Below, piece by piece: positions 20,763 to 28,912 of a DNA stretch of 48,404 nt; positions within the stretch are counted from its first letter, which is position 1; each line of letters opens with the position of its first letter. The stretch is from positions 1 through 48,404 of the forward strand of contig CACZSH010000012.1 in NCBI GenBank assembly GCA_902783785.1. Reading direction: 5' to 3'. The translations under genes and the position numbers were made by a program. Source of the DNA: an uncultured bacterium (GTDB taxonomy: Bacteria > Cyanobacteriota > Vampirovibrionia > Gastranaerophilales > Gastranaerophilaceae). The notes under the pieces were generated by a model that saw only the letters and a list, made by a program, of their open reading frames with translations, was not told the origin of the DNA and did not search any database.

Positions 20763-22271
20763 TTATTTGTTTTCTATTACGTATCCTTTAAATCTTTGAC
20801 AAGAAAATTCTTTTTCTATTTTGGCAGTACTTGGAAGTATTAAAGATTTTTCGGTTGCTAAAAGAATAAAATTCCCTTTATAAATTGAAGGTTCTTCTGT
20901 ATAATCAATTTTTATTCTTTGTTCATCTCTTAAGTATGGAATAATATTCAAAATATTCCAACCATTAGTTTCAGTTATTATTATTGGAGAATTTGTTGTT
21001 TTTATTGGTTCACAGGTTGTATTTACAAAAATATTTTCAATATTTCCTCTCGATATTGCGATACGCGGAGGATTTAACATTGAATCATAGCTTTCAAATT
21101 TTGTAGGAAGTGTAAAACTTATCGTAATAATTATACAAATTAATGATATCAAAACAGTCTTTAACTTTTTTGTTTCCAATATTATTGCAGGAAGTATCAA
21201 TGATAATATCGGAAATAGAGGCTCTGTATAACGTAATACTTTTTGTGGTGCAAAAAGCAAAAATAAAATATAGCAAAACAAATTTATACCTATTAAAATC
21301 CATAAAATATTATCTTTTAGTAATTTTTTATTAAAAATTAACGTTAATATTGAAATTATAGTGATAATACTATAAAATAAATAGTTTAAAAGTATTTGAT
21401 AACTTGCAAACAATGCTAAATTTAAATTATTTGTTATATTCGACAGTAAAGAATTATCTGAAATTCCAACTCTGGGTGCGTAAATAAAATCTAAATAATT
21501 CGGATAAATTAAAAAAGTTAAACCAATAGCAATTATAAATGAGCAAATTAAAAACCATCCAGAACGTTTTTTTATCAATAAAATCAGCCCTAAAATTGCA
21601 GAATAAATTATACCATAATATCCGCTTAATATTGTTATTGTTCCTGATGAAATTATTTTTGAAAAATTTTGTACTGTATTTATTTTTTCGGTTTTATATA
21701 TATACACAAAAACATAAGATAAAAATACAAAAGCCATTTCTTGAAGAGCATAATATCTCGCAAATATACTCATTGATATTGTTCCTGTATTCAAATAGCA
21801 AAAAGCCAAAATAAATGGTATGTATTTTTTATCAAAATTCAATAAATTTATTAGTTTAAACATAAAGAAAAATGATAAAGAAAATAAAATTAAATTAAGA
21901 TAAAAGCCTCGTTGATAAATATTTTTTATATCAAAAGAATTCAATCCTATTTGAGATATTCTAAAAAGTGAGTAATATAAAGGGGTATTTGGTGTATCTC
22001 CGTTGTTGTGAAATCTTAAAGATTTTAAAGAGTTAAGAATTTCTTTTGGCGAATTATCGTTTAGTCCAAAAACAATCTCTTTTATTTCTTTTCCGGTATA
22101 TGTTTTTTCTGTATCAAAATATTTTGTAAATCCGTATTCATTATTTTTTGATATAACAACTGTGAAAATTTCATCAGTATGGAAACCTTGTTTTTGGCTA
22201 AACCAATAACATCTTACAAGTAATGCAAGAATAAAAACTAATATTGTTAAAATTATTGTTTTTTTTGTCAT
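20763..22271 (-). CDS. GT-C fold integral membrane glycosyltransferase (PMT/ArnT-like)
   Basis: 502 residues with an N-terminal membrane segment, the luminal motif GFHTDEIFT (acidic residues after the first membrane helix, as in PMT_2/ArnT enzymes) and IFARYYALQEMAF. About ten further hydrophobic helices and a soluble C-terminal part follow. Such enzymes use polyprenyl-phosphate sugars to glycosylate lipids or proteins on the outer face of the inner membrane. It begins 3 bases after the isocitrate dehydrogenase stop, so it is the last gene of the citrate operon despite the lack of an obvious metabolic link. The exact acceptor is unknown. Confidence 0.8.
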   Translation of the reverse strand: MTKKTIILTILVFILALLVRCYWFSQKQGFHTDEIFTVVISKNNEYGFTKYFDTEKTYTGKEIKEIVFGLNDNSPKEILNSLKSLRFHNNGDTPNTPLYYSLFRISQIGLNSFDIKNIYQRGFYLNLILFSLSFFFMFKLINLLNFDKKYIPFILAFCYLNTGTISMSIFARYYALQEMAFVFLSYVFVYIYKTEKINTVQNFSKIISSGTITILSGYYGIIYSAILGLILLIKKRSGWFLICSFIIAIGLTFLIYPNYLDFIYAPRVGISDNSLLSNITNNLNLALFASYQILLNYLFYSIITIISILTLIFNKKLLKDNILWILIGINLFCYILFLLFAPQKVLRYTEPLFPILSLILPAIILETKKLKTVLISLICIIITISFTLPTKFESYDSMLNPPRIAISRGNIENIFVNTTCEPIKTTNSPIIITETNGWNILNIIPYLRDEQRIKIDYTEEPSIYKGNFILLATEKSLILPSTAKIEKEFSCQRFKGYVIENK

Positions 22272-22274
22272 AAA

Positions 22275-23270
22275 TTATAAATTTTTAATGATTTCATCTC
22301 TAAATTCGGTAGTTGAAGCATTTCCGCCTAAATCTGCCGTTAAGGATTTACCCTCTTTTAAAGTTTTTCTTAAAGCTTTGTCTATTTTTTCTGCATAAAC
22401 TGTTTCGCCAATATATTTTAACATTTCAATTGCAGAAAGTAATAGAGCTGTTGGGTTAGCCTTGTTTTGACCCTTTATATCAGGCGCAGAACCATGAACT
22501 GGTTCAAATACTGCATAATCTTTTCCGATATTTGCTCCTTGTGCAACTCCAAGTCCTCCAATTAATCCTGCGCATAAATCTGATACAATATCACCGTATA
22601 AATTAGGTAATACCATAACATCAAATTTTTCAGGATTTTGAACGAGTTGCATACAAGCATTATCAACAAGAATTTCGTTATATTCTATGTTCGGATATTT
22701 TTCTTTTACTTTTCTGCAACATTCTAAAAATAAGCCGTCTGTTAGTTTACAAATATTTGCTTTTGTTACTGCTGTTACTTTTTTTCTTTTATATTTTACT
22801 GCATAATCAAATGCGAATTCTGCAATTCTTAAAGAAGCTTCTCTTGAAATTATTTTTATACTTTCAGCGTGATTTTCGTCAATTTGTCTTTCAATTCCTG
22901 CGTATAAATCCTCTGTATTCTCTCTTACAATTACTAAATCAACATCAGAAAATTTTGTATTTATACCATCAATATTTTTGCAAGGACGTAAGTTTGAATA
23001 TAAATCCAAAGACTTTCTCAATTGGACATTAACACTTCTGAAACCTTTTCCGATTGGTGTTGTAACAGGTGCTTTCAGCGCAACTTTATTCTTTTTTATT
23101 GATTCAATTACTCTATCAGGCAGCGGTGTACCTTCTTTTTCAATAACATCTGCTCCTGCAGTTTGTAAATCCCAGTTTATTTCTAAACCAGATGCCGCTA
23201 TTATTTTTACTACCGCATCTGTTATTTCAGGACCAATTCCGTCTCCGTTTATTAAAGTTACGGTTCTCAT
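22275..23270 (-). CDS. NAD-type isocitrate dehydrogenase (isocitrate/isopropylmalate dehydrogenase family)
   Basis: A beta-decarboxylating dehydrogenase of 331 residues. It starts VTLINGDGIGPEIT, has FRSVNVQLRKSLDLYSNLRP (the Ser-x-Asn-x-x-Leu-Arg substrate loop of isocitrate dehydrogenases), VIVRENTEDLYAGIE, the catalytic Lys in VTKANICKLTDGLF, DNACMQLVQNP, and the NAD site VFEPVHGSAPDIKGQNKANP. The loop and the operon favour isocitrate over isopropylmalate; homoisocitrate cannot be excluded. It overlaps the aconitase-type small subunit by 4 bases (ATGA). Product would be 2-oxoglutarate, feeding glutamate synthesis. Confidence 0.85.
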   Translation of the reverse strand: MRTVTLINGDGIGPEITDAVVKIIAASGLEINWDLQTAGADVIEKEGTPLPDRVIESIKKNKVALKAPVTTPIGKGFRSVNVQLRKSLDLYSNLRPCKNIDGINTKFSDVDLVIVRENTEDLYAGIERQIDENHAESIKIISREASLRIAEFAFDYAVKYKRKKVTAVTKANICKLTDGLFLECCRKVKEKYPNIEYNEILVDNACMQLVQNPEKFDVMVLPNLYGDIVSDLCAGLIGGLGVAQGANIGKDYAVFEPVHGSAPDIKGQNKANPTALLLSAIEMLKYIGETVYAEKIDKALRKTLKEGKSLTADLGGNASTTEFRDEIIKNL

Positions 23271-23755
23271 AGTTCCAAATCTCCGTGTTTTTTGATATGT
23301 TCAATTAATCCGCCTTCATTTAAAAGTTTTATCATAACTTCTGGCAACGGTTGAATTTTTATTTCGTTATTTTGAGTAAGATTTTTTACAACTCCGTTTT
23401 TAATATCTATATCAAGTTCATCTCCGGCATTGATTTTGTCTGTATCGCATTCAATTAATAAAAGACCGATATTGATTGAGTTTCTGTAAAAAATTCTTGC
23501 AAAACTTTTTGCTAAAACTGCACCAACACCTGCAATTTTAATTATTTGCGGTGCATGTTCTCTTGATGAACCCAATCCAAAGTTATTTCCTGCAACAACA
23601 AAATCGCCCTCTTTCATTTTTGATGCAAATTCGGGATCGGCATCTTCAAGAACGTGTTTTGAAAATTCTTTTAAATCAGAACGCAAGTGGAATAATCTTC
23701 CCGGTGCAATGTGGTCTGTCGAAATATTATCACCAAATTTAAAAACTTTCCCCAT
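23267..23755 (-). CDS. Aconitase/homoaconitase-type small subunit (LeuD-like fold)
   Basis: A 162-residue swivel-domain subunit of a two-subunit hydro-lyase. GDNISTDHIAPGR leads into the substrate loop HLRSD, and AGNNFGLGSSREHAP is the family signature. In this family an Arg in the loop (YLRT in archaeal homoaconitase) is associated with tricarboxylate substrates, whereas isopropylmalate isomerases have a hydrophobic residue there; HLRSD therefore points to citrate/aconitate or homocitrate. It begins within the stop codon of the large subunit (TAATG) and overlaps the dehydrogenase gene by 4 bases. Confidence 0.85.
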   Translation of the reverse strand: MGKVFKFGDNISTDHIAPGRLFHLRSDLKEFSKHVLEDADPEFASKMKEGDFVVAGNNFGLGSSREHAPQIIKIAGVGAVLAKSFARIFYRNSINIGLLLIECDTDKINAGDELDIDIKNGVVKNLTQNNEIKIQPLPEVMIKLLNEGGLIEHIKKHGDLEL

Positions 23756-25008
23756 TATAACACCTCTCTTACATCTGCTATATAACCTTTAATTGCGCTA
23801 TAGGCAGCAACTGCAGGACTTGATAAATATATAAATCCTTTAGTGTTACCCATTCTGCCTTGAAAATTTCTGTTTTGAGTTGCAAGACAAACTTCTCCGT
23901 CTCCTAAAATACCTGCATGAACTCCTACACATGGACCGCATCCGCTTGTTACTATTGATGCTCCGCTTTCTACAAATGTTTCAATTAAACCTTCTTTTAA
24001 AGCTTGCATAAAAACTGTTCTTGAAGCAGGTGCAACAAGTAATCTTACATCAGGATTTACCTTTTTACCTTTTAAAATCTCTGCTGCAACTCTTAAATCT
24101 TCAATTCTTCCATTTGTGCAAGTTCCTATAAATACTTGGTTTACTTTTATATTTTTTAATTCGTCAACTGCTTTTGTGTTATCAACCGTATGAGGACAAG
24201 ATATTGTCGGTTTTAATTCTGATGCATTTATTTTTATAATTCTTTCATAAACAGCATCTTTATCCGCTTTTATTTCAACAAATTTATCTTCTCTTCCTTT
24301 TTCTTTTAAATATGCCAAAGTCTTTTCATCTGTTTCAAAAAGTCCGGCTTTAGCACCTGCTTCAACTGCCATATTTGCAATTGTAAATCTGTCTGACATT
24401 GACATATTTCTTATTGTTGAACCGCTAAATTCTAACGCTTTATAAGTTGCTCCGTCAGCGCCAATTGTACCAATAAGATGAAGGATTAAGTCTTTTGCGT
24501 AAACACCTTTTTGAAAATCTCCTTCAACTTCAACTTTGAATGTAGCTGGTACTTTTAACCAAGTTTTACCAAGTGCCATTGCTACAGCAATATCGGTTGA
24601 ACCCATACCTGTTGCGAAGGCTCCTAATGCACCTGATGTGCAAGTATGAGAATCTGCACCTACAAGAATTTCTCCGGGGTTTACATACGTTTCAACAAGT
24701 CTTTGGTGGCAAACACCTTCTCCTACTTCTGAAAGTACTGCACCATATTCTTTTGCAAATTCTCTCAAAACAGTATGAGTGTTTGAAAGTTCTTTTCTTG
24801 GACTCGGTGCTGCGTGGTCTATAAATAAAATTGAACGTTCAGGATTTGCAAGTTTATCTTTGCCCAATTTTTTAAATTCATTGACCATTAACGGTCCTGT
24901 TCCGTCTTGAACTGCTGCTACATCTACTTTTGCAATTACAAGTTCTCCTACTTGAACATTGCGTCCTACGTGTTTTGATATTATTTTTTCTGCTATTGTT
25001 TGTCCCAT
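23755..25008 (-). CDS. Aconitase/homoaconitase-type large subunit (LeuC-like fold)
   Basis: 417 residues holding the [4Fe-4S] cluster: FIGTCTNGR supplies one Cys and TSGCGPCVG the other two. Other landmarks are DHAAPSPRK, GADSHTCTSGALGAFATGMGSTD, and ATQNRNFQGRMG near the C-terminus. By sequence alone it would be labelled LeuC (3-isopropylmalate dehydratase). The neighbours (Re-citrate synthase-like, isocitrate dehydrogenase-like, HLRSD small subunit) argue for aconitate hydratase. It lies 21 bases after the synthase gene. Confidence 0.86.
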   Translation of the reverse strand: MGQTIAEKIISKHVGRNVQVGELVIAKVDVAAVQDGTGPLMVNEFKKLGKDKLANPERSILFIDHAAPSPRKELSNTHTVLREFAKEYGAVLSEVGEGVCHQRLVETYVNPGEILVGADSHTCTSGALGAFATGMGSTDIAVAMALGKTWLKVPATFKVEVEGDFQKGVYAKDLILHLIGTIGADGATYKALEFSGSTIRNMSMSDRFTIANMAVEAGAKAGLFETDEKTLAYLKEKGREDKFVEIKADKDAVYERIIKINASELKPTISCPHTVDNTKAVDELKNIKVNQVFIGTCTNGRIEDLRVAAEILKGKKVNPDVRLLVAPASRTVFMQALKEGLIETFVESGASIVTSGCGPCVGVHAGILGDGEVCLATQNRNFQGRMGNTKGFIYLSSPAVAAYSAIKGYIADVREVL

Positions 25009-25029: not shown

Positions 25030-26325
25030 TTATATTAGTAAATCTTGATATTTTCTGCTTTTTGGTGCGTGTGCGGGTTCGTAGTATGGTGTTACTGTCA
25101 TAATTTTTGCTGCAAATTCAGGATAATAATATATGAATTTTAGTTCAGCATCGGTTAAAGGTTTTTGAGTGTGTACATTGGCATATCTTGCAAGTTCAAG
25201 AATATTTCTTGCATCTTCTTCATTTTCAAATTCAAGTTCCATTTTTTCGTAGACATTTCTAAAACCTTTAATACCGCCGTATTCTCCGGTTGTTATCATT
25301 CTTCCTGTTTCAACTATTTCAGGCTCACCTCTGCCTAATTCTTCATAATCATAAAGTTCATAGTTTCTTCTGTCTTTTAAAGCTCCATCGGCATGTATCC
25401 CTGATTCGTGTGCAAAAGCGTTACTTCCTACAGCTGGTTGGTTTATAGGTATTGGTAATCCAAATGCGTAAGCTGTGTATTTTGCAAGTTTCCAAGATTT
25501 TGATAAATCTATTTGTTTATCTATTTTGTATTTATCTTTAAAACCACTTGATTTTAGTACTGCTAATAAGCAAGAAATTAAATCTGCATTTCCGGCTCTT
25601 TCTCCCATACCGTTTATAGCTGTATTTATATAAGCATTAACTCCGCTGTCTATTGCTGCTTTTGCACCCATAACAGAATTTGCAACAGCCATTCCTATAT
25701 CGTTATGGTAGTGAAGTTCTATATCCATACCTGTTTCTTGTGCAATTTTTGTTATTCTTTCATAAGAAGTTTGTGGGTCGTCAAAACCTAATGTGTCGCA
25801 GTATCTAAATCTGGTTGCACCTTTTTCTTTGGCATTTAAGCCCCATTTTATTAGATAGTTAATGTCGCTTCTTGATGCATCTTCCGCATTTACACCTATT
25901 GAAATTGCACCTTTTTCTTTGGCACATTCTACAGCTTCGTTAGTGAGTGTGATTATGTCTTCTTTTGATTTTGTTCCTTTGTATTTGCCTTGTATCATTT
26001 GGTCTGATGTTGATACCGATAAGTTAACGTATTTCAGTTTTGGACAATTTTTAAAAGATTCTTCTACATCTTTTGCTATTCCTCTCATCCAACCTGAAAG
26101 TTTTGTTCTGTTTATTATTCCTGCTTCAACTAAATCTAGATTTGCATTTAGGTAATTGAGTTCATGTTTTGTTGTAGGAAATCCGAATTCAGACTGAGTT
26201 ATACCTAAACTATTTAACATTAGGTTTATAATAGTTTTTTGTAATTTTGCTAAACCTAATCTTGATGTTTGAACACCATCACGGTTTGTAACATCTACAA
26301 AATGTATGTATTTATCTTGTGTCAT
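25030..26325 (-). CDS. Re-citrate synthase (homocitrate synthase-like)
   Basis: A DRE-TIM metallolyase of 431 residues that begins VDVTNRDGVQTSRLGLAKLQ and continues SEFGFPTTKHELNYLNANL, the pattern of the clostridial Re-face citrate synthases (Clostridium kluyveri type), which anaerobes use in place of the usual Si-citrate synthase. GVNAEDASR, RYCDTLGFDD, ELHYHNDIGMAVANS (metal-binding HxHN-type site) and the NGMGERAGNADL loop are present. The C-terminal part has SNAFAHESGIHADG. Homocitrate synthase is the alternative, but no lysine or nitrogenase genes are near. The reaction would be oxaloacetate plus acetyl-CoA to citrate. It follows DUF4914 after 19 bases. Confidence 0.85.
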   Translation of the reverse strand: MTQDKYIHFVDVTNRDGVQTSRLGLAKLQKTIINLMLNSLGITQSEFGFPTTKHELNYLNANLDLVEAGIINRTKLSGWMRGIAKDVEESFKNCPKLKYVNLSVSTSDQMIQGKYKGTKSKEDIITLTNEAVECAKEKGAISIGVNAEDASRSDINYLIKWGLNAKEKGATRFRYCDTLGFDDPQTSYERITKIAQETGMDIELHYHNDIGMAVANSVMGAKAAIDSGVNAYINTAINGMGERAGNADLISCLLAVLKSSGFKDKYKIDKQIDLSKSWKLAKYTAYAFGLPIPINQPAVGSNAFAHESGIHADGALKDRRNYELYDYEELGRGEPEIVETGRMITTGEYGGIKGFRNVYEKMELEFENEEDARNILELARYANVHTQKPLTDAELKFIYYYPEFAAKIMTVTPYYEPAHAPKSRKYQDLLI

Positions 26326-26344: not shown

Positions 26345-28237
26345 TTAATAATTACCTGGGATAATTTTTTCGTAGTCATCTAATGTACCGTTATCCATGC
26401 AACAACCTATAATGGCTTTTCCTAAAGGGTGAAGAGAGCTTTGCATATATAATTTTAATTCTTTTTTAAAGAAATCTTCTAATTGTTTTGCTCCTGCATC
26501 ATAACCTTCTAATCCGACTTCAGGTTGAACTGTTACATCTAAGAATTTTTTAGACATAGCAACACCTTCAACGTGAATTTGTTCAGGAATATAACCTGCC
26601 AAAGGATGTCTTGCCGGATGAAGATTGATTTTCTTCATTGAAGCTTGACCTCTTCTTGCAAGATATTCTCTTATAACCCATTGAGCCATAAATCCAACCT
26701 TCCAGCATCCAATATGTTGATTTGGAATAAGGATATTTTTAGTTTTTGTTGTTTGCATAAATTGTTCAAGCAAAATATTTGCAAAATCAACTCTTTTACC
26801 TGTTGCAAAAGGCCAGAAAGAACCTACGCCTTCACTTTTTATATCAAATAAATTTGAATCTTCTCCGCTTGCATCAATACTAGGATTGTTAAATCCTCTA
26901 GGTGCTACCAATCTCCATAACCACGCTAATGCAGGAGGAAGGACATGCATCATTCCGAAAATTCCGTATGAAGGATTTTCTTTTGTACAAGGAGGAGTTC
27001 TTAATCCAAAGCTTCTGTAATCTATATCAATTGGGCCATCTTGGATATTTTCTATTAATTCTCTCGGAATAATTATTCTCGGATTAGAACATCTTTTACC
27101 GGGTTCATCTTCTACGTGTTCCCAAATCAAACAAGTTGAATCAGGATGTCCATTAATATTAAAGAATAATAAAGGTTTTTCCGGATGTATTGTTACTTTT
27201 TCCAAGTGAGGATCTGTTCCGTAGCTGTCTATATGGTCAATTCTTATAAACCATGCTTTTTCAGCATCAGTAACAGCTAATTTGCCGTGTTTTTGAAATT
27301 CAGGATTTGATAATGCCATATCATCTGTTAAAGGTTGTAATTTACAAGAATGACCTAATTCAAGGTATCTTAGTTCTCCTGTAAGAGTGTTTTTTCCTAA
27401 AATTAAACGTCCGTCTTCTTCACGGTGAACATATTCAAGCATTTCACTTTTACCGCTTCCTGACGCTCCTTCGTGAAGAATTGTTGTATCGTTATCATAA
27501 GGTGTTACAACATCAACAGTTGATGCGTGCATCGTTACGTAATCTTCTTTTAGCCCCAGTGCTAAAAGTATTCCGTAAACACCTTTTTTTGCACTCGGCC
27601 CTGGGTATAAATTATATGAAAATACTTCGTGTACACCGTTTTGTTGATTATGAACAACAACTTGTTTTCCGTCATAATGTGTATGTCTGAATGGCGGAGC
27701 AAGATAAATTATAGCTTTAGGGTTGAATTTGTTGTCTATTTCATCAATTGGAATCATTCCTTGCATATCATAAACACTTGCTGCAAAAAATGCTGCATTC
27801 TTAGGTGCAATTAATAGTGCAGGATATCCGTAGTCAATGCCGCCTGCCATAAATGGAAGAACTATCAATTCATTGCTCTTTAACCATTCTAATGTTTGTG
27901 TTCTTACAGGTTCAAATTCTGCTTGAAATCTGTCCTTGTATAAAACTTTATCAGTCATTTCTATATTATTAACAACCATACAATTAGGATCACGTCTTCT
28001 CATATACGCTTCTGTATAGTTTATACAAAGTCCGTTTTTGCATTTTACAACGTTTGCTTCTTCTATTTCTCCTCTGCCTTCAACATTGTATGTTACGTGA
28101 AAAATTTTATTATCTTTTCCTCCCATTGAAAGTTCAAATAACTGTTCTCTGTTTTCTGGAACAATTACGTTTTGACAATTATCAATAGTGTTACGTACAT
28201 CTTCTGCTAATACCCAATTTTCCCAAAGTCTATTCAT
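26345..28237 (-). CDS. DUF4914 protein with PEPCK/HPr-kinase-like P-loop
   Basis: A 630-residue protein I assign to DUF4914. The centre carries HEGASGSGKSEMLEYV (near residues 260-275), a P-loop of the HPr kinase/PEP carboxykinase type, then a possible kinase-2 segment (LQPLTDDMALSN). A conserved C-terminal part has FWPFATGKRVDF and IPNQHIGCWKVGF. The length is like GTP-dependent PEP carboxykinase, but the GTP-enzyme motifs are absent. As first gene of the citrate operon it could supply oxaloacetate from PEP, or be a kinase regulating the pathway; both are inference. The start is supported by AAGGG upstream and a good promoter at 28271-28299. Confidence 0.8.
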   Translation of the reverse strand: MNRLWENWVLAEDVRNTIDNCQNVIVPENREQLFELSMGGKDNKIFHVTYNVEGRGEIEEANVVKCKNGLCINYTEAYMRRRDPNCMVVNNIEMTDKVLYKDRFQAEFEPVRTQTLEWLKSNELIVLPFMAGGIDYGYPALLIAPKNAAFFAASVYDMQGMIPIDEIDNKFNPKAIIYLAPPFRHTHYDGKQVVVHNQQNGVHEVFSYNLYPGPSAKKGVYGILLALGLKEDYVTMHASTVDVVTPYDNDTTILHEGASGSGKSEMLEYVHREEDGRLILGKNTLTGELRYLELGHSCKLQPLTDDMALSNPEFQKHGKLAVTDAEKAWFIRIDHIDSYGTDPHLEKVTIHPEKPLLFFNINGHPDSTCLIWEHVEDEPGKRCSNPRIIIPRELIENIQDGPIDIDYRSFGLRTPPCTKENPSYGIFGMMHVLPPALAWLWRLVAPRGFNNPSIDASGEDSNLFDIKSEGVGSFWPFATGKRVDFANILLEQFMQTTKTKNILIPNQHIGCWKVGFMAQWVIREYLARRGQASMKKINLHPARHPLAGYIPEQIHVEGVAMSKKFLDVTVQPEVGLEGYDAGAKQLEDFFKKELKLYMQSSLHPLGKAIIGCCMDNGTLDDYEKIIPGNY

Positions 28238-28309: not shown

Positions 28310-28852
28310 TTAGTTGTTAATTGTTCCTAAATAGTGTAGAACTTTTTTTGTATAAATTCTGTTGGTAAATGCTATTAATGCAGAGCGAATTGCTTCTGAT
28401 AAAGGTGTAATTTTAGACGCAAAGCTTTCTGCTGAAAATTTTCTTGTTATAAATGTTGATTGAAGAGCTGCTTCAAGTTCAATACATAAGTAATTATAGG
28501 CTATTTCTTCAGTGTAGCTTGCTATTTTGTAGAGTTGTAATATCTCTGCAGTTTCTGATATGCTTAATACTTGCTTAAAAATACCGATTACAATAAGTTG
28601 TACTAACTGTATTTTTGAATATTTTTTATTTATTGGTGGAAGTATAACTTTTTGTTTAACATAATTGTTTATCATTGTAGATGTTATCGAACTTTTTTCT
28701 CCCGGTATTCTAAAAATTGATAATGTTTTATTTAATAGTTCTGTTAATTGCTCCATGTATAAATCAAAATTTGGCAATTCATCAAATCTTGGCATTTTAA
28801 AATTACCAAGCTCTTTTGCGGTTTCTGTTTCGATAAAGAGTTTTTGTTCCAT
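28310..28852 (-). CDS. DUF1836 putative transcriptional regulator
   Basis: 180 residues. The pattern LPNFDLYMEQLTELL...TSTMINNYVKQKVILPPINKKYSK followed by LVQLIVIGIFKQVLSI is that of DUF1836, a MerR-like helix-turn-helix family. I start at the ATG at 28852; the longer frame begins with TTG at 28885 and would add an unlikely hydrophobic MILFFLLYN stretch. It is on the same strand as, and 72 bases before, the citrate operon, so it is a natural candidate regulator of that operon. TACAAT lies only 6 bases before the ATG, suggesting a leaderless transcript. Confidence 0.8.
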   Translation of the reverse strand: MEQKLFIETETAKELGNFKMPRFDELPNFDLYMEQLTELLNKTLSIFRIPGEKSSITSTMINNYVKQKVILPPINKKYSKIQLVQLIVIGIFKQVLSISETAEILQLYKIASYTEEIAYNYLCIELEAALQSTFITRKFSAESFASKITPLSEAIRSALIAFTNRIYTKKVLHYLGTINN

Positions 28853-28912
28853 AATTTTATTGTACAACAAAAAAAATAAAATCAAACTAAATATGCTAAT
28901 TTTTAATATTAC

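Follow-up and report, generated by a model that had tools for sequence, protein, structure and literature searches.

A conserved DUF4914 protein with a predicted PEP carboxykinase fold probably takes the place of PckA in some Gastranaerophilaceae

The window, a stretch of 48,404 nucleotides, comes from an uncultured member of the Gastranaerophilaceae whose genome (1.78 Mb, 122 contigs) is 97% complete. At positions 26345-28237 it encodes a 630-residue DUF4914 protein, identified by its ORF, its Pfam match and its predicted fold. The original prediction gave these coordinates exactly and left the strand unsaid: the ORF starts with ATG, is preceded by a Shine-Dalgarno-like AGAAGGG and is encoded on the minus strand (28237 to 26345), and the plus-strand frame over the same positions is broken by many stops. 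Directly upstream on the same strand lies a DUF1836 gene (28310-28885; ORF and Pfam), possibly a regulator or the leading gene, and this neighbor is kept in the window's genus (loci L019 and L021). Downstream, still on the minus strand, a gap of 19 bp with a Shine-Dalgarno-like AGAAGG leads to a gene for a 431-residue HMGL-like synthase (25030-26325; ORF, Pfam and NCBIfam). ORFs and profile matches then define the large subunit (23755-25008) and small subunit (23267-23755) of an aconitase-family enzyme, the former of the aconitase/homoaconitase type, and an NAD-isocitrate-dehydrogenase-like protein (IDH; 22275-23270). A probable membrane protein of 502 residues (20763-22271) starts 3 bp after the isocitrate dehydrogenase gene, again on the same strand. 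The nearest named relative that we found is Candidatus Gastranaerophilales (L020), at 71% identity.

The gene had been described as standing before a Re-citrate synthase, and it does adjoin the HMGL-like synthase, which is probably such an oxaloacetate-consuming enzyme. Its own sequence places this protein no more closely than in the isopropylmalate/homocitrate/Re-citrate synthase group, to which Re-citrate synthases belong. Its best NCBIfam match is the homocitrate synthase family TIGR02660, at 261 bits where the cut-off is 462.9; no equivalog cut-off was reached among the 25 families shown, and the solved structures nearest to it are those of isopropylmalate and homocitrate synthases. The name Re-citrate synthase is plausible because of the operon partners, and it is on these that this part of the description depends.

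The DUF4914 protein matches its family profile (PF16260) with 987.6 bits (E = 2.3e-297), with residues 10-626 covering profile positions 1-612 of 612, against a gathering score of 25.7 bits. The sole other informative Pfam match is to ATP-dependent PEP carboxykinase (PEPCK_ATP, PF01293), which falls below its cut-off (residues 62-265, 21.3 versus 26.5 bits); an NCBIfam PEPCK match is likewise sub-threshold (15.3 versus 636). Neither GTP-PEPCK (PF00821) nor any HPr-kinase family matched in Pfam at E up to 1. The function of the family had been called undescribed, and indeed we found no paper naming DUF4914 or PF16260 in a literature that omitted most subscription journals. Identity across phyla is 49-58%, and to judge from these alignments the family's conservation is far beyond chance.

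This conservation extends to motifs of the catalytic type. In an alignment of 20 sequences (A2), KKG, HEGASG, DDM and NPR are invariant in all 20, and so are the KK pair, H237, the P-loop and NPR when compared as catalytic-type motifs, except at P-loop position 261. All of these are encoded on the minus strand. MRRRDP (residues 79-84, 27986-28003), also invariant, aligns with TGRSPKDK of the ATP-dependent enzyme PckA in a register uncertain by one residue, and is a candidate counterpart of the oxaloacetate-binding arginine of the PckA RxP motif, which we take to be R65 in Escherichia coli. By alignment, KKG (residues 217-219, 27581-27589) would correspond to the KK(S/G) of PckA, presumably the metal/substrate lysines K212 and K213 of E. 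coli, and His237 (27527-27529) to the metal-binding histidine of MHCS, presumably E. coli H232. The P-loop GASGSGKSE, which the original prediction had pointed out, is present at residues 257-265 (27443-27469) and aligns with GLSGTGKTT of PckA. Farther along, TDDM (residues 304-307, 27317-27328) contains the invariant D305 and D306, a candidate kinase-2/metal aspartate pair. These two residues pair with GDDIA of GTP-PEPCK in the profile alignment, whereas the DD of PckA pairs instead with a stretch near residues 282-283, so this assignment is provisional. Finally, the invariant NPR (residues 385-387, 27077-27085) aligns with NTR of PckA and PNAR of GTP-PEPCK. The roles suggested here for individual residues are those that such alignments would predict.

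To examine the fold, we used two AlphaFold2 models of moderate quality, from shallow alignments of 12 and 13 sequences: model 1 of the window protein (pLDDT 67.1, pTM 0.70) and model 2 of a Phycisphaerae relative, L024 (pLDDT 69.2, pTM 0.78). Among the Foldseek matches shown, both models retrieved only PEPCKs, over their full length, with E = 2.6e-16 (to PckA) for model 1 and 1.9e-17 for model 2. In VIA comparisons with the Thermus thermophilus ATP-PEPCK (2pc9_B), model 1 aligned over 483 residues at 3.2 Å (Z = 24.7) and model 2 over 472 residues at 3.6 Å (Z = 23.5). The match takes in both lobes of the PEPCK fold, from residue 4 to 616 in model 1 and from 2 to 609 in model 2. GTP-PEPCK scored a Z of about 20 with either model. 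The C-terminal third has low pLDDT in both.

Profile comparisons support kinship with PEPCK over the N-terminal 60% of the protein. DUF4914 aligned with PckA at 82% probability (E = 9.9e-6, 381 columns, residues 27-504), and part of it aligned more weakly with GTP-PEPCK (E = 3.1e-4). When the halves were aligned separately by global profile, the N-terminal half matched PckA and the C-terminal half aligned with no PEPCK, leaving the nucleotide pocket unmapped; it is thus the modeled fold by which the C-terminal half may be counted as PEPCK. A search of the PDB sequences with a single DUF4914 sequence returned no significant relative, and searches with two DUF4914 profiles reached only T. thermophilus PckA (E = 1.2 and 0.031). 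The resemblance to PEPCK claimed earlier is therefore borne out by the folds of both models, where an unrelated fold had been named as the outcome that would count against it, and by the profile match. We consider it nearly certain from the predicted fold that DUF4914 belongs to the PEPCK superfamily, of which it is a separate, uncharacterised branch. It shares with PckA (EC 4.1.1.49) the whole fold and the aligned KK, H, P-loop and N-x-R positions, but it is about 100 residues longer, is 13-17% identical in structural alignments, scores below the Pfam cut-off, ends its P-loop in KSE rather than KTT and has a C-terminal sequence that does not align. With GTP-PEPCK (EC 4.1.1.32) it shares the fold and alignable EGW..H, DD(M/I)A and PN.R stretches, but the profile match is weaker and the P-loop is GASGSGKSE instead of ACGKTN.

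The form of the P-loop had led the original prediction to place the protein closer to HPr kinase; from the gene's position before Re-citrate synthase it had suggested, as one of two possibilities, that the protein might phosphorylate a partner. HPr kinase/phosphorylase has the P-loop motif GxSGxGKSE, and the KSE ending of GASGSGKSE does speak for a protein or metabolite kinase of this type with a regulatory target, perhaps a PEPCK or the citrate enzymes. The placement is not supported, however: DUF4914 has the PEPCK fold over its full length, N-terminal domain included, is about twice as long as HPr kinase/phosphorylase and contains no RG[ILMV]G, the HPr-kinase motif. Membership in the HPr kinase/phosphorylase family itself is ruled out, as no such Pfam family matched at E up to 1. 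A kinase of this kind is an improbable reading of the protein.

A different question is which phosphate donor a PEPCK of this form would use. A review (PMC8100219) distinguishes ATP-, GTP- and PPi-dependent PEPCKs. DUF4914 could be a PPi-using enzyme, a short relative (about 620 residues) of the 1,100-residue PPi-PEPCKs (EC 4.1.1.38; 8e1u, 6k31), with which it shares the fold. Among all chains shown, PPi-PEPCK 8e1u from Propionibacterium freudenreichii aligned the most residues with both models: 587 of 630 in model 1 (Z = 22.2, 18% identity) and 571 of 620 in model 2 (Z = 22.5), although a chain of that size also leaves more residues available for alignment. The Z-scores slightly favor ATP-PEPCK (24.7 and 23.5); in model 2 the PPi enzyme is only 1.0 below the best ATP-PEPCK, practically a tie, and this model therefore cannot separate them. 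DUF4914 is half the length of these enzymes. Against the PPi reading, neither of its profiles matched a PPi-PEPCK among the PDB sequences at E up to 10, and its C-terminal half could not be mapped by sequence. We regard a PPi-PEPCK as possible but not as the expected answer; it is a sub-case of the PEPCK reading that we favor below, and the likelihoods of the two are not additive.

We then considered where DUF4914 occurs among 191 genomes of the window's family. It is present in 19 and PEPCK_ATP in 164, with both in none and neither in eight; PEPCK_ATP is thus found in 0 of the 19 genomes with DUF4914 versus 164 of the 172 without it. A Fisher test gives p = 3e-20 for this exclusion, a value that ignores kinship and that we do not use as proof. 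Most family genomes have a single PEPCK_ATP match, and the matches are of two kinds. Seventy-eight genomes have strong ones (E below 1e-40), corresponding to canonical PckA, and 86 have weak ones, nearly all to a divergent protein of ~550 residues that we call type D. This typing was by E-value, with seven of the weak ones examined in full, and the split is approximate because at least one weak row, in G149 (profile positions 402-465 only), is a fragment of canonical PckA. Type D ORFs (L056, L058, L059, L060, L064, L065 and L066) carry HKKG, GLSGSGKST and HDDAF, and the two that were scanned reach 56.9 and 73.5 bits with PF01293, while neither passes any NCBIfam PEPCK cut-off. Type D stands in for canonical PckA in many genomes of the family, and the form can differ even among species within a genus; the two interchange 11 times on a tree of 64 typed genomes. 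One genome, G031, has a normal PckA and a second PckA-like ORF of 651 residues, extended at its N terminus and with its profile match split (contig 3, L057:175-2130, plus strand).

A species tree of the SRP protein Ffh takes in 90 of the family's 191 genomes, among them every one of the 19 DUF4914 carriers and seven of the eight with neither gene. It puts DUF4914 in three separate places, with three changes forced by well-supported branches. One place is the window's genus, g1; another is a lone genome, G055, from genus g21; the third is a clade formed by genera g6, g20 and g33. A single clade for g1 and the latter, big clade is rejected (p-AU = 9.5e-6). The DUF4914 gene tree joins the g1 copies with those of the big clade as sisters, and the G055 copy is distant and groups with a contig from a viral collection. 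From the places on the species tree and the positions in the gene tree, we conclude that there were at least two, and probably three, gains or moves of DUF4914; losses in between are also possible where g1 and the big clade are concerned. The viral-collection contig (IMG/VR L076, the same contig as L115) is the sole viral one found and has DUF4914 at its very edge (1-1881), which more likely represents flanking host DNA than a phage gene. A plasmid collection gave no match to DUF4914.

In each of the three lineages, carriers of DUF4914 are without PEPCK_ATP. With only three independent occurrences, a test on independent pairs is not significant (median p = 0.5). The sister genomes of the G055 lineage, G020 and G083, have neither gene. 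The same is true of eight genomes in the family altogether, two of them 99% complete, so a PEPCK is not indispensable there.

Other enzymes that could supply oxaloacetate were sought in 29 chosen genomes of the family: the 19 with DUF4914, seven with PEPCK_ATP (G006, G007, G009, G010, G012, G037 and G048) and three with neither. None of the 29 has PEP carboxylase. PYC_OADA, as ORFs of ~600 residues, is present in seven of seven PEPCK_ATP genomes, in none of the 19 with DUF4914 and in none of the three with neither, and it seems that PEPCK_ATP and PYC_OADA were lost together. The window's genome, the one member of the family searched for PEPCK_GTP, gave no match to it; nor did it match PEPCK_ATP, PEP carboxylase or PYC_OADA, which answers the earlier call to look for another pckA or pyc gene. 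As this genome holds the consumer, a Re-citrate synthase (Re-CS) homologue, DUF4914 would be its only supplier among the carboxylating enzymes tested, and the proposal that it makes oxaloacetate from PEP is plausible for that reason. Homologues of Re-CS (E below 1e-140) are found in 18 of the 19 DUF4914 genomes, five of the seven PEPCK_ATP genomes and all three with neither; the exception among the DUF4914 genomes, G063, has only a distant paralogue, with its contig broken at that place. However, two 99% complete genomes with neither gene, G050 and G080, have the Re-CS homologue and none of the tested suppliers, and this makes the argument from supply suggestive rather than compelling.

Recurrent linkage to citrate genes, the lack of which had been named beforehand as counting against the proposal, was not borne out by a survey of gene neighborhoods. 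In 11 other DUF4914 loci (L020 and L022-L031), tblastn over up to 10 kb on each side, where the contig allows, found no Re-CS, aconitase or IDH; for L023, L025, L026 and L027 this result comes from the tblastn survey alone. A counterpart of the synthase is also absent among the genes of 17 DUF4914 loci from other genera of the family (L038-L054). Three further loci (L019, L021 and L055) are cut inside DUF4914, and linkage in the window's genus is known from the window's genome alone. Conversely, 20 Re-CS neighborhoods from other genera contain no DUF4914. In one of these, from G048, the same four-gene Re-CS cluster lies about 4 kb from PckA and about 7 kb from PYC_OADA, both encoded on the opposite strand; no other neighborhood among the 20 has PckA. 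A conserved DUF4914-citrate linkage is thus ruled out: Re-CS adjoins DUF4914 in the window's own genome and in no other locus examined. Because no recurrent linkage was found, the role of DUF4914 must be argued from replacement.

Outside the family, DUF4914 and classic PEPCKs coexist. PckA is present together with DUF4914 in three of 11 genomes reached through loci elsewhere (the GTP type was covered in one of the 11). Among 199 genomes of Roseospira's order, the Rhodospirillales, five have DUF4914, 62 PEPCK_ATP and 122 PEPCK_GTP, with a single genome holding both nucleotide-dependent types. All five with DUF4914 also have a classic enzyme, the ATP type in two and the GTP type in three. These cases rule out a universal exclusion of classic PEPCK, and DUF4914 is therefore not a general replacement. 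In two of the Rhodospirillales (G204 and G251; L074 and L075), the gene immediately upstream of GTP-PEPCK, in the same orientation, is DUF4914. Either the two PEPCKs have separate roles there, with a different donor or direction, or the arrangement speaks against PEPCK activity of DUF4914 in these organisms. It would also suit a regulator and its target, as in the HPr-kinase type of reading, but in the window's family PEPCK is excluded by DUF4914 rather than co-occurring with it, and phosphorylation of a partner is unlikely. The ORF lists of alphaproteobacterial DUF4914 loci, inspected by eye for HPr kinase among the neighbors, yielded nothing conclusive. Coexistence with canonical PEPCK fits a PPi enzyme as well: according to the review cited above (PMC8100219), an ATP or GTP enzyme is also found in most organisms that possess PPi-PEPCK.

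The same coexistence can be turned against any PEPCK role. PckA or type D, together with OadA, may have been lost for some other reason in lineages that happen to carry DUF4914, which would then perform an unrelated 2-oxo-acid or phosphate-transfer reaction on a PEPCK-fold scaffold. Such hitch-hiking would also agree with there being only three events, with the eight genomes that lack all forms, and with the absence of any form in G020 and G083, the sisters of G055. On the other side, all three DUF4914 lineages are without PEPCK_ATP, against 164 of 172 genomes that lack DUF4914 and have it, and the 11 changes between PckA and type D among 64 genomes look like one slot filled by alternative enzymes. 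We consider the hitch-hiking account unlikely.

The strongest functional evidence on DUF4914 is its replacement of PEPCK_ATP in the family. Since it is found there only in genomes without the classic enzyme, with which it is phyletically interchangeable, it probably does the job of PckA, and we put at roughly 0.68 the probability that DUF4914 is the acting PEPCK of the window's organism. It would catalyze the interconversion of PEP, CO2 and a phosphate acceptor with oxaloacetate and the phosphorylated acceptor, and the oxaloacetate would then pass to 2-oxoglutarate through the products of the adjacent Re-citrate synthase, aconitase and IDH genes. We infer both the catalysis and the direction of flux. 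The donor may be ATP or GTP, or it may be pyrophosphate, a serious candidate even if we would not bet on it. In Thermotoga maritima, searched as a control genome, DUF4914 is present with no PEPCK_ATP, PEPCK_GTP or PEP carboxylase; a PYC_OADA-family protein is also present, and oxaloacetate may therefore be made there without DUF4914.

More speculatively, DUF4914 could be a fourth class of PEPCK, probably linked to PPi or phosphate and only half as large as the PPi enzymes known so far. In this view it would have spread horizontally, ousting the nucleotide-dependent PEPCK together with its partner OadA where it arrived in Gastranaerophilales, and would serve as a C3/C4-node enzyme in T. maritima; we offer this only tentatively. 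Few parts of metabolism are as well charted as the PEP-pyruvate-oxaloacetate node. If a large, strongly conserved family of "unknown function" with a PEPCK fold does replace the textbook enzyme there, recognizing it would fill holes in the metabolic models of gut Gastranaerophilales and T. maritima.
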